NCBI RefSeq assembly: GCF_000328685.1
Contig: NC_019974.1
Span: 1,541,001 to 1,605,000, forward strand
Length of the DNA: 64,000 nt
Direction of reading: 5' to 3'
Source: Natronococcus occultus SP4
Lineage (GTDB): Archaea; Halobacteriota; Halobacteria; Halobacteriales; Natrialbaceae
The notes under the pieces are model-generated. The model saw nothing but the letters and a program-made list of their open reading frames with translations. It ran no database searches and was not told the DNA's origin. Below are positions 11,322-16,193 of the stretch, in pieces (position 1 is the first letter of the stretch; the number at the start of each line of letters is the position of its first letter). The position numbers and the translations under genes were made by a program.

Positions 11322-12338
11322 CTAGTGCATCGAGATCGCGCTCCCGGAGCGACTCGAGGCGAGGATCGCCAGCGCGTAGATCGCGATCGCGACGACGACG
11401 ATCGAACCGCCCGGCGGTAGCCCCTGCGAGATCGCGAAGCCGAACCCGCCAAGCACCGAGGCCTGGCCGAACAGAATCGACAGCGCCAGCGTCTCGCGGA
11501 ACCCGTGGGCGATCTGCGAGGCGGCCGCGACCGGGATGACGAGCATCGCGGCGACGAGGATCACGCCCATGATCTGCATGGCGCCGACGACGACGACGGC
11601 GGTCATCACGATCAACAGCGTGTTGTACCAGGTGACGTTGAGGCGGGCGACCCGGGCAGCCTGCTCGTCGAACGTGATGAAAAGCAGCTGCTTGTAGGTT
11701 ACCGCGACGACGCCGACGACGGCGATGGTCAAGATTGCGACCAGCCGCGCCCCCTCGGCGGGGATGACGGCTGCGCTCCCGAACAGGTAGTCCTCGATGC
11801 TGACTCCCGAGAAACCGCCCCGACCGTAGCTGATGATCAGGGTCCCGACGGCGAAGCTCCCGGTGAGCATGATCGCGATCGGGACGTCGCCGTAGGTGTT
11901 GGTCCGCTCGGCGAGATACTGCACGAGCAACGCGCCGATGACCGCGACGACGAGCGCGGCGACCAGCAGGGAGCCGTCCCAGTCGGTCGTCGCGCTAAAG
12001 AGCAGGCCGATGGCGACGCCTGCGAAGGCAGTGTGAGCCAGCGTCTCGCCGATCAGCGCCATCTCGCGGTGAACGAGATAGGTCCCGACCAGCGGTGCGG
12101 CGATCCCGACGAGGACTCCCGTCGCGATCGATCGCAGCATAAAGGAGTAGCCGAAGACGCCCGTACCGAGGTAGTGGTCGAGCCACATTCCGGCGATCGT
12201 GTACTGGTCGTACAGCGTCCCGGCGTATGGGTACTCCTGGAGCCACTCGAGAGCCAGGAAGGCAAGCATCACGACCGCGAGCAGGCCCGTCAACGCGATC
12301 CCGATCCGCTCGAGGCGGCGTCTGTGTGTCCGATCCAT
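11322..12338 (-). CDS. znuB: Zinc/manganese-type ABC transporter permease (ZnuB family)
   Basis: This 338-residue membrane protein of the ABC-3 family has about eight or nine hydrophobic segments and the family signatures GVLVGIAAPLVGTYLVHREMALIGETLAHTAFAGVAIG and VGAMQIMGVILVAAMLVIPVAAASQIA. It forms the membrane channel for Zn2+ (or Mn2+) import. Its start overlaps the stop of the ATPase gene as ATGA, and it is the last gene of an operon reading permease after ATPase after binding protein. Zinc is favoured over manganese because the neighbouring binding protein and lipoprotein carry His-rich segments. Confidence 0.9.
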   Translation of the reverse strand: MDRTHRRRLERIGIALTGLLAVVMLAFLALEWLQEYPYAGTLYDQYTIAGMWLDHYLGTGVFGYSFMLRSIATGVLVGIAAPLVGTYLVHREMALIGETLAHTAFAGVAIGLLFSATTDWDGSLLVAALVVAVIGALLVQYLAERTNTYGDVPIAIMLTGSFAVGTLIISYGRGGFSGVSIEDYLFGSAAVIPAEGARLVAILTIAVVGVVAVTYKQLLFITFDEQAARVARLNVTWYNTLLIVMTAVVVVGAMQIMGVILVAAMLVIPVAAASQIAHGFRETLALSILFGQASVLGGFGFAISQGLPPGGSIVVVAIAIYALAILASSRSGSAISMH

Positions 12339-13078
12339 CAGTGATGGTGGTGGACGACCTGCCCGGTCGTTCCGTACGCTTGCTCCAAGGCGTTGCTTTC
12401 GACGAACGATTCCGTGTCCCCGTGGTGGAACAGCTCCGTGTTGATGCAGGCGACCCGATCGGCCCGGTTGGTGACGACGCCGATATCGTGTTCGATCAGG
12501 ACGATCGTGATCCCGGCGTCGTTGAGCGAATCCAACAGCGCGTAGAACGCGTCCCGGGATTCGGCGTCGACGCCGACGGTCGGCTCGTCGAGCGCCAGCA
12601 GGTCGGCCTCGGAGGCCAGCGCCCGCGCAATGTAGGCCCGCTGGCGTTGTCCACCGGAGAGCTGATTGACGCGGCGGTCGGACAGGTCGGTGATGCCGAC
12701 CGTTTCGAGGGCGTCGTCGACGATCTCGTGGTCCTCGTCGCCGAGCCGGGAGTGGCCCGCGTGGGCGAACCGTCCCATCGTCACCGCCTCGCGGACGGTA
12801 ACGGGCATCGTCCCGCCGCGGCTCGTGGCCTTCTGGGAGACGTAGCCGATGCGCTCGCCCTGGTCGAACTCGTCGACTGGCTGGCCGAACAGCTCGATCC
12901 GTCCGCTGTCGGGGCTGTGAAGCCCGAGCATCAGGTGCAACAGCGTTGTCTTCCCCGACCCGTTCGGGCCGACCAGCCCGAGAAAGTCACCCGCCTCGAT
13001 CGTCAGCGAGACGTCTCGAATAGCGACAGTTTCACCGTACGCGAACGTTACGTTCTCCATCTCGACGATCGAGCTCAC
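12338..13078 (-). CDS. znuC: Zinc-type ABC transporter ATP-binding protein (ZnuC family)
   Basis: This ATPase of about 246 residues has all ABC motifs: Walker A GPNGSGKTT, Q-loop YVSQKA, signature LSGGQRQR, Walker B LLALDEPT and the switch histidine in IEHD. I choose the GTG at 13078 (SSIVEMENVTFAYGE) because longer frames upstream would run into the preceding binding-protein gene and lack homology; the ATG at 13060 is an alternative. The protein ends in four consecutive histidines (QVVHHHH), unusual for an ABC ATPase and suggestive of metal sensing or buffering at the cytoplasmic side, though this could be incidental. It overlaps the permease gene by 3 nt. Confidence 0.92.
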   Translation of the reverse strand: MSSIVEMENVTFAYGETVAIRDVSLTIEAGDFLGLVGPNGSGKTTLLHLMLGLHSPDSGRIELFGQPVDEFDQGERIGYVSQKATSRGGTMPVTVREAVTMGRFAHAGHSRLGDEDHEIVDDALETVGITDLSDRRVNQLSGGQRQRAYIARALASEADLLALDEPTVGVDAESRDAFYALLDSLNDAGITIVLIEHDIGVVTNRADRVACINTELFHHGDTESFVESNALEQAYGTTGQVVHHHH

Positions 13079-13134: not shown

Positions 13135-14520
13135 CTACTCGGCTCCGAGCGCGTTCGCGAGCGACGGGATCGTGATCTCTTCCATCAGTTCGACCCAGCC
13201 GTACCCCTGCTCGCTCCACTCTTCGGTGGTCCCCTCCGCCGGCGTAACCGGTTCGGCGTCGGTCGCGTCGGTTTCCTCGAGCAACACCTCGACCATCTGG
13301 GGGACGTCCTCCTCGGGATCGGGCGTCTCGAAGGGGTCGTAGAGGATCGTCTCGATGTTTTCCTCCTCGATCACCTCGATCAGCTCGGAGACGTCCTCGC
13401 TCGACTCGACGGCGTCGGGCGAGACGCCGACGGGGGTTCGGATCTCGAAGTCGTAGCGCTCCTCGAGGTAGCCGAACGACTGGTGGCCCGCGAGGACGGC
13501 GACGTCCCGGGTCGCGTTCTCGGCGACGTCCTCGAGCTGCCGGTGGACCTCGTCCATCCGGTCCGTGTAGTCGGCGGCGTTTTCTTCGTACGTATCGGCG
13601 TTGTCCGGATCGAGCTCGCCCAGCTCGGCCGCGATCGTCTCGACCATCTCCTGGGCGAGGACGGGGTCGACCCAGACGTGGGGGTCGGCGAACTCGGTTC
13701 CGTCTTCGCCGTCGTCCTCGACGACCGCGACCGAGAGGTTGTCCGCGCTCGTGTCCCAGACGACCTCGCCGTCGACGACGAGTTCGAAGACGACCATCGT
13801 TCGACTCTCCTCGAGGCCGTGGAACTCGACGTGGTCGCCCTGCGGTTCGATCTCGAGGGCGTCCTCGTCCGCGCCGTCGACGACGGTGGCCTCGAGTGTG
13901 AACGGCTCGTCATCGCCGAGCGGGAGGACACGACCCTTCGCGTCCTCGAAGACGCCCTCGATCGTGATCTGCCCGTCGAGCGGGACGTCGGGGACGCCGC
14001 CGTGCCAGTGGTCGTCGTGCCAGTAGGCGACCTCTTCGCCGGTGCGCCCGTCGTAGAGTTCGAACTCCGCGATCTCGACGGCGGCCGGATCGTCGTCGTA
14101 CTCCGCGACCGGCTCGCGGTCCTCGTCGGTCTCGCGGTCCATCGGGAGCAGCTGGCTCTCGACGGCCTCGAGACCGTTGATCAGTGCGACGTCCTCGGAC
14201 TCGAGGTCGGCGGCGACGTCTTGCGCCCAAGCGAACTCGGGGCTGTCGAGGTAGACGAAAAACGCCGACTCCGTGATCTCACGCTGGAGATCGACGGGCG
14301 GCTCCCAGCCGTGACCCATCTCTCCGGTTTCGACCGGGTTCTCGATCGTCAGCTCGTCGCCGACGATATGTTCCGTCCAGTCGGCGAGCGTGAAGAAAGC
14401 GGCGTACCCCTCCTCCGGGTTCCCGTCCTCGCCGCCGGGTTCGCTCAGACAGCCCGCGAGGACGCCGAGGGAGAGCGCGCCGGCACCCGAACGTAACACT
14501 GCGCGGCGTGACCGTGTCAT
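13135..14520 (-). CDS. znuA: Zinc-binding ABC lipoprotein (ZnuA family) with inserted beta-rich domain
   Basis: This 461-residue exported lipoprotein starts at the ATG at 14520 (TRSRRAVLRSG, lipobox LAGC around residue 24), longer than typical ZnuA/TroA proteins (about 300). The A-1 metal-binding frame is present: H70 (GEMGHGWEPP), H281 (DPHVWVDP), H346 (GHQSFGYLEERYDF) and D395 (ILYDPFETP). Between about residues 142 and 275, where relatives carry a His-rich loop, there is an extra domain beginning EIAEFELYDGRTGEEVAYW with HDDHWHGG (168-175) and GDHVEFHG (228-235). The same domain makes up the two lipoproteins encoded just upstream. The inserted domain is likely to gather or hand over zinc outside the cell; that is inference. 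Confidence 0.92.
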   Translation of the reverse strand: MTRSRRAVLRSGAGALSLGVLAGCLSEPGGEDGNPEEGYAAFFTLADWTEHIVGDELTIENPVETGEMGHGWEPPVDLQREITESAFFVYLDSPEFAWAQDVAADLESEDVALINGLEAVESQLLPMDRETDEDREPVAEYDDDPAAVEIAEFELYDGRTGEEVAYWHDDHWHGGVPDVPLDGQITIEGVFEDAKGRVLPLGDDEPFTLEATVVDGADEDALEIEPQGDHVEFHGLEESRTMVVFELVVDGEVVWDTSADNLSVAVVEDDGEDGTEFADPHVWVDPVLAQEMVETIAAELGELDPDNADTYEENAADYTDRMDEVHRQLEDVAENATRDVAVLAGHQSFGYLEERYDFEIRTPVGVSPDAVESSEDVSELIEVIEEENIETILYDPFETPDPEEDVPQMVEVLLEETDATDAEPVTPAEGTTEEWSEQGYGWVELMEEITIPSLANALGAE

Positions 14521-14569
14521 AGGTAGAGGTACGGGCGAGCGGATAAAAGAGTTATTATGTGTACGAGGG

Positions 14570-14582
14570 GAGTTAATAACTC
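14570..14582. promoter_or_regulatory. 13-bp palindrome upstream of znuA, candidate operator
   Basis: GAGTTAATAACTC is a perfect inverted repeat with one central base, 50 nt upstream of the znuA ATG on the minus strand. A second, imperfect GAGTTATTA occurs 20 nt closer to the gene (about 14550). The spacing fits a metalloregulator operator overlapping the promoter. It resembles, in its central TTA-N-TAA core, the palindrome at 15385-15399 ahead of the neighbouring lipoprotein gene. Confidence 0.4.
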
Positions 14583-14642
14583 GTTGCAGCAATCGCTCGT
14601 GGGATAACAACGTGTCACGGCGTCGAGCGCGGCGGGTGAAAT

Positions 14643-14654
14643 GGGGGGGGGGGG
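14643..14654. repeat. Homopolymer run of 12 G
   Basis: Twelve consecutive G on the plus strand, followed by CCC, in the 199-bp intergenic region between znuA and the His-rich lipoprotein gene. Such a tract is slippage-prone. It lies within a possible read-through transcript from the lipoprotein gene into znuA, about 65 nt past the lipoprotein stop codon. Confidence 0.8.
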
Positions 14655-14719
14655 CCCGATTCGGGCGAGAAGGTGACACGAGAGTCGGGTTACGGGTTCG
14701 GGAGGGCGGGATCGAGTCG

Positions 14720-15358
14720 CTAGTGGTCGTCGTCGTGATCGTGATCGTCGTCGTGATCGTGGTCGTCGTCGTGATCGTGTGCGTCACCCTCGGCGTGGTT
14801 CTCCTCCGGATCGAAGTCCTCGACGACTTCGACCTCGAGCTCCGGGGAATCCCAGTCGGAGTGGTCGTCGTGCCAGACCTGGAGGACGATCTCGGTGATC
14901 CCTTCATCGTCGCCGGTTAGCTCGACGTGGTCGCCGTGGGACTCGATCTCGACGTTCTCCTCGGCACCCTCGACGACCTCGGCCTCGAGCTGGTACTCCT
15001 CGTCCTCGCCGAAGACGATCTCTTCGCCGTCGGCGTCCTCGGCGTGGGCTTCGACCGCGATGGCGTCCTCGAGGGGGACGTACAGCGGACCGTGATCCCA
15101 GTGGTCGTCGTGGACGTACGCGAGCTGTTCCTCCGACTCGTGGTCGAAGAGCTCGAACTCCTGGACGTCCATGTGGTGGTCGTCATCGTGATCATCGTCG
15201 TGGTCGTCGTGATCGTCGTCGCCGTCATCCGCATCTGCCTCGTCGTCCTCGTCGTCCTCGCCGTTGTCGCCGACACAGCCCGCAAGTCCGAGTGCCGCGA
15301 GGGAACCGGACGCTGCGAGCAGCTTCCGACGGGTCGAACGCGTTGAGTCCATCGTCAT
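14720..15358 (-). CDS. His/Asp-rich secreted lipoprotein with ZnuA-insert-like domain (copy 2)
   Basis: This 212-residue protein has an Arg-rich N-terminus (STRSTRRKLLAASG) and lipobox LAGC at about residue 28, then a linker of Asp and His (residues 36-62). A domain of about 115 residues beginning VQEFELFDHESEEQLAY follows, and then a C-terminal tail in which His-Asp-His-Asp-Asp-Asp units repeat (residues 188-212). The domain aligns along its length with the segment inserted in the neighbouring ZnuA: HDDHW (83-87), YVPLEDAI, HAEDADGEE, HGDHVEL (141-147), VEVVEDF. No named family is recognised. The tail and conserved His residues point to an extracellular zinc-binding or zinc-buffering role beside the importer. 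An ATG two codons later is an alternative start. Confidence 0.85.
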   Translation of the reverse strand: MTMDSTRSTRRKLLAASGSLAALGLAGCVGDNGEDDEDDEADADDGDDDHDDHDDDHDDDHHMDVQEFELFDHESEEQLAYVHDDHWDHGPLYVPLEDAIAVEAHAEDADGEEIVFGEDEEYQLEAEVVEGAEENVEIESHGDHVELTGDDEGITEIVLQVWHDDHSDWDSPELEVEVVEDFDPEENHAEGDAHDHDDDHDHDDDHDHDDDH

Positions 15359-15384
15359 TGTTAGGTAGCGTGTGTAGAGTGAGA

Positions 15385-15399
15385 TTGATTAGTAATCAA
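15385..15399. promoter_or_regulatory. 15-bp palindrome upstream of His-rich lipoprotein gene
   Basis: TTGATTAGTAATCAA is a perfect inverted repeat around a central G, 27 nt upstream of the copy-2 ATG. A wider inverted pair, GTTAGGT at 15360-15366 and ACCTAAC at 15399-15405, flanks it. The position between promoter and start suits a repressor site, plausibly for a zinc-responsive regulator; the regulator is not encoded in view. Confidence 0.45.
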
Positions 15400-15453
15400 C
15401 CTAACGATCTTGTTAATGTCGCCACGCGGAGCGAGGGGGCTTGGCAGGACGGA

Positions 15454-15517
15454 GTTCGAAGCGAGCGCGGTTCGAAGCGAGCGCGGTTCGGAACGAGCGC
15501 GGTTCGGAACGAACGAA
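15454..15517. repeat. Tandem 16-bp repeat (about four units)
   Basis: Units GTTCGAAGCGAGCGCG at 15454 and 15470, then GTTCGGAACGAGCGCG at 15486 and a diverged fourth unit from 15502. The repeat is intergenic, with no dyad or coding signal of its own. Confidence 0.7.
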
Positions 15518-15701
15518 GTGAGTGAGAACCGCGACTGCGAGCGCGGAACGAACGTGACGCGTGAGTGGACGAAGTGAGTGAGAACCGCGGAACGCGAACG
15601 AAACTATCCGTGTGACCAGTGTACAAACAGTTGCAGTTGGGACGAGACTCGCGGCCCGATCGCACAGCCGTTACAGGTGAACCGACTCGGGGGCAAGCCG
15701 T

Positions 15702-16193
15702 TCAGCGGGTCCCGGTATCGCGGTGATTCGCCGCGTCCTCGAAGTCGTCGACGACCTCGACGGCGAGTTCGGGCGAATCCCAGCCGAATCGGTCGCCGTC
15801 CCACAGCTCCGCGACGATCCTCGTCTCGCCCGTCGCGCGCCCGATCAGATCGAGACGGTCCTCGCGAGGCTCGATCGCGACGGGGTCGTCTCCGTCCTCG
15901 GCTGGAACCGCGCCGAGGCGGTACGGCTCGTCCCCGCCGAGCGCGAGCTCGCCGTCGGCGTCCTCGGCGCGGGCGCCGACCGAGAGCGTCCCCTCGAGCG
16001 GAACGAGCAACGGGCCACCCTCCCAGCGGTCGTCTGCGACCGTCGCGAGCGAATCGCCCGTCTCGGGATCGACGAGCTCGAACGACTCGACCGCGACGTG
16101 TTCCTCGTCGCCGCCGAAACAGCCCGCGAGCCCGAGCATCGTAAGCGAGCCCGACGCCGCGAGCACCGTCCGACGGGTCCGCTTAGTCGTCAT
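15702..16193 (-). CDS. Lipoprotein with ZnuA-insert-like domain lacking the histidines (copy 3)
   Basis: This 163-residue exported lipoprotein has a twin-Arg-like start (TKRTRRTVLAASG) and lipobox LAGC at about residue 25. It is followed directly by the same domain found in copy 2 and inside ZnuA: VESFELVDPETGDSLATV, GGPLLVPLEGTLSVGARAEDADGEL, WDSPELAVEVVDDFED. The presumed metal ligands are gone: HDDHW has become ADDRW (53-57) and GDHVEL has become EDRLDL (111-116), and there is no His-rich tail. It therefore looks like a paralogue that kept the fold but not metal binding. It is the first gene of the same-strand series leading into the zinc transporter. Function unknown. Confidence 0.82.
   Translation of the reverse strand: MTTKRTRRTVLAASGSLTMLGLAGCFGGDEEHVAVESFELVDPETGDSLATVADDRWEGGPLLVPLEGTLSVGARAEDADGELALGGDEPYRLGAVPAEDGDDPVAIEPREDRLDLIGRATGETRIVAELWDGDRFGWDSPELAVEVVDDFEDAANHRDTGTR

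Follow-up and report, generated by a model that had tools for sequence, protein, structure and literature searches.

Why does a zinc-uptake locus encode the same domain three times? The locus lies in a 64,000-nucleotide stretch of Natronococcus occultus SP4 (NC_019974.1, positions 1,541,001 to 1,605,000; the whole stretch is called the window here). It comprises the genes for two lipoproteins (LP1 and LP2), the zinc-binding protein ZnuA, the ATPase ZnuC, and the permease ZnuB. A ZnuA segment of about 120 residues (148-269) shares homology with the bodies of both lipoproteins, and this shared segment is a real domain family without a name. We propose, with a probability of about 0.7, that it is a secreted, membrane-tethered metal-capture module that holds a divalent metal on histidine triads and feeds zinc and cobalt/nickel importers.

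A domain shared by ZnuA and two lipoproteins

In BLASTP comparisons, LP1 and LP2 are 44% identical (E 9e-47), LP2 and the ZnuA insert 43% (E 3e-25), and LP1 and the insert 39% (E 8e-17). The local scores lie 41, 30, and 21 standard deviations, respectively, above the mean of 1000 composition-preserving shuffles. Therefore, the acidic composition of halophile proteins does not explain the similarity, and a composition artefact is ruled out. A preceding reading of the DNA without database searches (the sequence-only reading) had proposed this relationship, with ZnuA residues 142-275 as the shared segment; the segment is upheld and its limits become 148-269. The same reading rightly gave one stand-alone copy, LP2, His-Asp tails on both sides. 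Its view of three like copies holds for their homology and fails for the putative metal ligands, which LP1 has lost. The features are as follows.

15702-16193, minus strand: LP1, lipoprotein of 163 aa; Tat/lipobox signal; domain at about 15744-16097; both histidine triads gone
14720-15358, minus strand: LP2, lipoprotein of 212 aa; Tat/lipobox signal; domain at about 14816-15172; His/Asp-rich tails on both sides
15095-15112, minus strand: LP2 motif 1, HDDHWD (third His replaced)
14921-14938, minus strand: LP2 motif 2, HGDHVE
13135-14520, minus strand: ZnuA, 461 aa, cluster A-I zinc-binding lipoprotein with inserted domain; PF01297, 145 bits against a cut-off of 29
13714-14079, minus strand: inserted domain in ZnuA, residues 148-269, between the N-lobe and DPHVWVDP
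14002-14019, minus strand: ZnuA-insert motif 1, HDDHWH
13825-13842, minus strand: ZnuA-insert motif 2, QGDHVE
12338-13078, minus strand: ZnuC ATPase; start at 13078 (GTG) or 13060 (ATG); longer open reading frame (ORF) from 13219
11322-12338, minus strand: ZnuB permease
about 14550-14612 (approximate limits), minus strand: block upstream of znuA, CGTTGTTATC..GCAACGAGTTATTAAC..ACATAATAAC, conserved in five related species

The signature of the domain is a pair of histidine triads, HxDHWHG (motif 1) and HGDHVH (motif 2), both of the HxxHxH form. Among 103 copies of less than 80% identity, the tryptophan of motif 1 is conserved in 99% and its histidines in 89, 93, and 84%, and the aspartate of motif 2 in 94% and its histidines in 80, 87, and 68%. 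The aspartate of motif 1 is likewise one of the best conserved positions. HxxHWH is kept in 37 of 37 ZnuA-fused copies of the tree set, and motif 2 is intact in just 13 of these 37. Of the 33 stand-alone copies near Znu, 26 have motif 2 intact. LP1 carries ADDRWEG and REDRLD at the two positions. Outside the domain, His-rich stretches occur in 40 of 96 domain proteins, compared with 68 of 1270 other ORFs.

No Pfam model, NCBIfam model, or PDB sequence matches the domain above cut-off, in line with the sequence-only reading, and we found no description of such a domain in the literature. The AlphaFold2 model of the LP2 domain, made with 34 aligned sequences, is an all-β sandwich (mean predicted local distance difference test score, pLDDT, 91.9; predicted template modelling score, pTM, 0.84) of the immunoglobulin (Ig)-like type seen in Big_2-type domains. 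The solved folds nearest to this predicted model are Ig-like: S-layer protein SbsC (Z 9.0), Sap, LigA, and Big_2. The matches have Z of 7.8-9.0 and root-mean-square deviations of 2.4-3.4 over 86-99 residues, with 9-16% identity for the top bacterial ones. Such Z values are near the level reached by common folds and therefore show only the fold class. None of the named Ig-like family profiles, Big_2 included, matches above cut-off; the best are weak NUP210 and TMEM132 Ig matches.

Apart from the insert, the window ZnuA is ordinary. It has the profile match and the two lobes of cluster A-I, and retains the putative metal ligands H70, H281, H346, and D395. Residues 10-434 of the AlphaFold2 model of full ZnuA (pLDDT 88, pTM 0.82) align with metal-binding proteins of solved structure, reaching Z 29.4 over 257 residues for Lmb. 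The model keeps the ZnuA fold, and in both the model and the alignment the domain branches off immediately ahead of DPHVWVDP, at the position of the variable, His-rich loop, as the sequence-only reading had suggested. In 26 aligned ZnuA fusions, HxxHWH is invariant, and most canonical ZnuA ligand positions are invariant, too. A ZnuA subgroup (loci L095, L097, and L098, together with this genome's second ZnuA, L008:895-2283) has DAKFFSDP in place of DPHVWVDP, and therefore lacks the second canonical metal-binding histidine.

A whole-genome profile search finds five domain copies in the genome: besides LP1, LP2, and the ZnuA insert, there are a stand-alone lipoprotein (L010:1297-1851) and the insert of the second ZnuA. 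The genome's third ZnuA (L001:1399-2424) has no domain and provides an internal control. Read from the sequence, LP1, LP2, and ZnuA all open with a twin-arginine-type signal and a lipobox.

Distribution, neighbours, and history of the domain

The domain is common to archaea and six bacterial lineages, and its distribution is patchy. It occurs in 58 of 121 genomes of the host's own family, in 15 of 295 genomes of the phylum sample, in 8 of 200 of the Thermoplasmata class sample, and in 7 of 98 of the class of the Syntrophomonadaceae locus. The 64 loci in named genomes belong to Halobacteria, Thermoplasmata, Clostridia, Izimaplasma/Mollicutes, Nitriliruptoria, Myxococcia, Gemmatimonadota, and Ignavibacteria; one weak match comes from Bacteroidota. 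The genome scan used a narrow alignment and needs near-exact motifs; therefore, distant copies are under-counted. An origin of the bacterial copies from misbinned haloarchaeal contigs is rejected for most of them, as the loci span a G+C range of 41 to 73% and the neighbours look lineage-typical. Those of the Clostridia loci presumably include HemA/HemL-like genes. Plasmid or viral carriage of the domain was looked for, and none was found.

The hosts show a strong soda-lake bias. Metagenome-assembled genomes (MAGs) that are from the Kulunda soda lakes by name hold 37 of the 64 loci and 21 of the 24 bacterial loci. Two Kulunda papers published 871 and 1032 MAGs. These could account for no more than 2.2% of the collection, giving a binomial p of about 4e-44 for 37 of 64 loci, a statistic to be read with the loci as phylogenetically non-independent and some host clades as themselves soda-lake specialities. 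By our own name list, 59 of the 64 loci are named as alkaliphiles or soda-lake samples, Kulunda included.

Neighbours of the 64 loci were called by BLAST with references over a range of about 5 kb. Thirty-eight loci lie in or beside ZnuABC: 36 ZnuA fusions found by BLAST, L061, a thirty-seventh fusion recognised by Pfam, and L088, in which the domain gene adjoins ZnuABC. Fused and free copies, for which the sequence-only reading had suggested a survey, thus both occur, with 37 ZnuA fusions among the 64 loci. Six loci lie between CbiO and CbiM of the CbiMQO cobalt/nickel transporter (CbiM and CbiQ confirmed by Pfam), and four have a TonB-receptor-like gene nearby (a firm call in three, a weak one in L106); TonB receptor and HMA protein neighbours are confirmed by Pfam. 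In Halorutilus, a two-domain protein is encoded between the ZnuABC and CbiM/CbiQ genes. In an MCR-bearing methanogen, a two-domain protein is encoded in a cobalamin operon, flanked by CbiE-like and CbiM genes (CbiM by BLAST); judging by their sequences, we take other genes of this operon to be CbiC, CbiD, CbiE, and CbiA. Because the domain occurs in CbiMQO and cobalamin operons, we call the module metal-general, not zinc-specific. Of the extracytoplasmic zinc-capture module of the sequence-only reading, the extracytoplasmic location is retained, whereas the restriction to zinc probably does not hold.

Two further arrangements were seen. In Ignavibacteriales (L102:1439-5267), an HMA-domain protein and a TonB-dependent receptor accompany a variant domain lipoprotein, with THDDGW for HxDHWH. 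Long secreted archaeal proteins with two or three domain copies (L065:4185-7301, L069:3243-5531, L145:8407-11307, and L149:5926-8529) also carry an unnamed Cys-bearing segment (ELLIETNIDNDHACTHD...), and ZnuA or CbiM/CbiQ genes adjoin in several cases.

The ZnuA fusion arose more than once. On a tree of 108 domain copies (119 columns; many forks unresolved), the label 'fused to ZnuA' requires at least three changes on starred branches. A tree that unites the fused copies in a single clade, as one fusion event would require, is rejected (approximately unbiased test p 0.0005, quick tree), and is still rejected when the C-terminal copies of L061 and L063 are left out (p 0.001, quick tree). The Izimaplasma ZnuA fusions group with Izimaplasma stand-alone copies. 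Halobacteria, Izimaplasma, and Thermoplasmata all have their fusion junctions at one and the same loop of ZnuA. The suggestion of the sequence-only reading that the module moved into or out of the loop is borne out as repeated movement in one or the other direction.

Soda-lake Thermoplasmata encode a circularly permuted ZnuA (L061:4020-5693 and L063:3990-5705), with the C-lobe ahead of the N-lobe. The order is membrane anchor, ZnuA C-lobe, N-lobe, and two domain copies, followed by the ZnuC and ZnuB genes. The C-lobe profile (about 87-262) is found at residues 42-209, and the N-lobe is 62-65% identical to that of the normal-order L064. The permutation break is the very loop that carries the insert in L064. 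The permuted ZnuA is consistent in two assemblies from differently named samples, T1Sed10 and B1Sed10.

Within the window, the ZnuA reading frame extends upstream to 590 aa; the likely start is 14520, just before the Tat/lipobox signal. The protein is 88-89% identical to ZnuA of Natronococcus strains in the compared region, and LP1 orthologs hold the same position in the gene neighbourhoods of L043-L046. The conserved block at about 14550-14612 contains the inverted pair GAGTTATTA / TAATAACTC and, judged from its sequence, is a candidate promoter/operator. TTGATTACTAATCAA, upstream of LP2, was checked for conservation and is not conserved, and a search for an upstream palindrome common to all domain loci found none. 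A run of about 12 C in the LP2-znuA gap (window positions about 14640-14656) is missing from four related species.

Proposed metal capture and its alternatives

In the proposed mechanism, the two histidine triads on the Ig-like sandwich would bind a divalent metal. The free lipoproteins, often in tandem and with His/Asp tails, would collect metal at the cell surface, and the ZnuA insert, in place of the His-rich loop, would pass the ion on in cis, first to the ZnuA site and then to ZnuBC. The module may also serve CbiMQO cobalt/nickel importers or outer-membrane receptors in other lineages. The proposal is based on homology, predicted fold, motif conservation, insertion site, neighbours, repeated shuffling, and soda-lake bias; from these we infer that the domain binds metal and hands it over, which metals it takes, and that a shortage of metal in soda lakes was the selective cause. 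The flexible loop takes part in hand-over in AztC and has been proposed to do so in ZnuA, and here the loop is the domain. Capture by lipoproteins with delivery in cis is the most economical explanation.

Several observations weigh against it. Motif 2 is degenerate in most haloarchaeal ZnuA inserts. LP1 orthologs in related species are also degenerate at the histidine triads, yet the gene is retained; therefore, at least one copy has some other role. Loss of motif 1 and loss of motif 2 are uncorrelated (Fisher p 0.63), so that one site and two separable ones are equally likely; for a single composite site made from both motifs, the co-loss test is negative. Sixteen of the 64 loci have no importer within about 5 kb (some contigs are shorter). 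In addition, metal specificity is read from gene neighbours only.

The loci that lack an importer, many of which are lone tandem-domain lipoproteins, would suit a zinc sink or buffer, in which the domain binds surface metal against excess or for storage, not import. The same histidine motifs and the high capacity of the long His/Asp tails are consistent with such a role. However, most loci are importer operons, and a sink is hard to square with a domain that several lineages carry inside the binding protein of the importer itself; we consider it unlikely. A structural Ig-like spacer or docking module with no metal role, whose histidines stabilise the fold or contact a partner, would agree with the S-layer- and Big_2-like fold (Z up to 9.0) and with LP1, which minus the histidines retains the remaining domain. 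Against this, six histidines, arranged as two HxxHxH motifs, are among the best conserved residues, and the neighbours are metal importers of unrelated types; the explanation seems quite improbable. The domain might also recognise importer proteins only, with the metal travelling via the His/Asp tails; LP1 persists without its motifs, and the 40 proteins with tails fit as well. But many copies, the window ZnuA insert included, are tail-less and yet keep HxxHWH, leaving this explanation very little chance.

We see even odds that a habitat-specific module spread between soda-lake archaea and bacteria, was repeatedly plugged into ZnuABC, CbiMQO, and TonB receptors, in ZnuA at the same loop (circularly permuted there in one group), and was selected by metal starvation at pH 10. 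Our literature search found no direct measurement of zinc scarcity in soda lakes.

Comparison with known accessory systems

Accessory zinc proteins that feed importers are already known in a few bacteria, namely ZinT, AztD, Pht, and ZrgA; for archaea, the literature searched describes none. ZinT, AztD, and PhtD are zinc binders that either interact with a ZnuA-type protein or transfer zinc to it, and a flexible loop of the binding protein takes part in the case of AztC, as has been proposed for ZnuA (PMC6689063, PMC3842936).

Like the proteins studied here, Pht proteins (PF04270, e.g. PhtD with AdcAII) carry the HxxHxH motif in several copies, lie at the surface, and are encoded beside a ZnuA-like binding protein. 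Three histidines and a glutamate of Pht bind zinc, which passes to the ZnuA-like AdcAII of the same operon, and zinc scavenging and hand-over have been proposed (PMC3842936). However, Pht units are short three-stranded repeats, whereas the domain here is a predicted 120-residue Ig-like sandwich that also occurs inside the binding protein and is paired with cobalt/nickel importers. The repeated HxxHxH motif of Strep_his_triad (PF04270) is present, and 6 of 34 members touch the profile (best E 9.4e-6). Membership is rejected, as the member examined scores 14.7 bits where 27 is the cut-off, and its match spans 11 of the 52 positions, in the motif only. A PF04270 search gave no match in ten domain-holding genomes, and control genomes gave no match either. 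The resemblance appears to lie in a shared motif.

ZinT is likewise an accessory zinc-binding domain that stands alone or is fused to ZnuA, the fusion being AdcA (PMC6689063). The ZinT profile (Pfam, NCBIfam) matches neither the window proteins nor the 34 domain members. In AdcA, the extra domain is C-terminal, whereas here the domain is in the ZnuA loop and C-terminal copies occur in Thermoplasmata only. AztD, an accessory extracytoplasmic protein as well, hands zinc to the cluster A-I protein AztC and needs the flexible loop of AztC (PMC6689063); it is a β-propeller, in contrast to the predicted Ig-like sandwich of about 120 residues. ZrgA, a zinc protein that is secreted and has a His-rich stretch it can do without (PMC9820375), is similar in these features, but its profile (PF10986) reaches two relatives only and scores 16.5 and 17.9 bits there, below the cut-off of 27.4, and membership is rejected. 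Bacterial Ig-like domains (Big_2 type; SbsC, Sap, LigA) share the overall predicted fold. To our knowledge, histidine triads are not a feature of Big_2-type domains. No common unrelated domain without a metal link accounts for the family: the fold is Ig-like, but it comes with two histidine triads and metal-importer neighbours.

An unnamed family appears to feed at least two importer classes in archaea and six bacterial lineages, and to be built into the binding protein of an importer. The fused form makes zinc hand-over testable inside one polypeptide. The distribution of the domain suggests that acquiring metal in this way is a specific adaptation to life in soda lakes.

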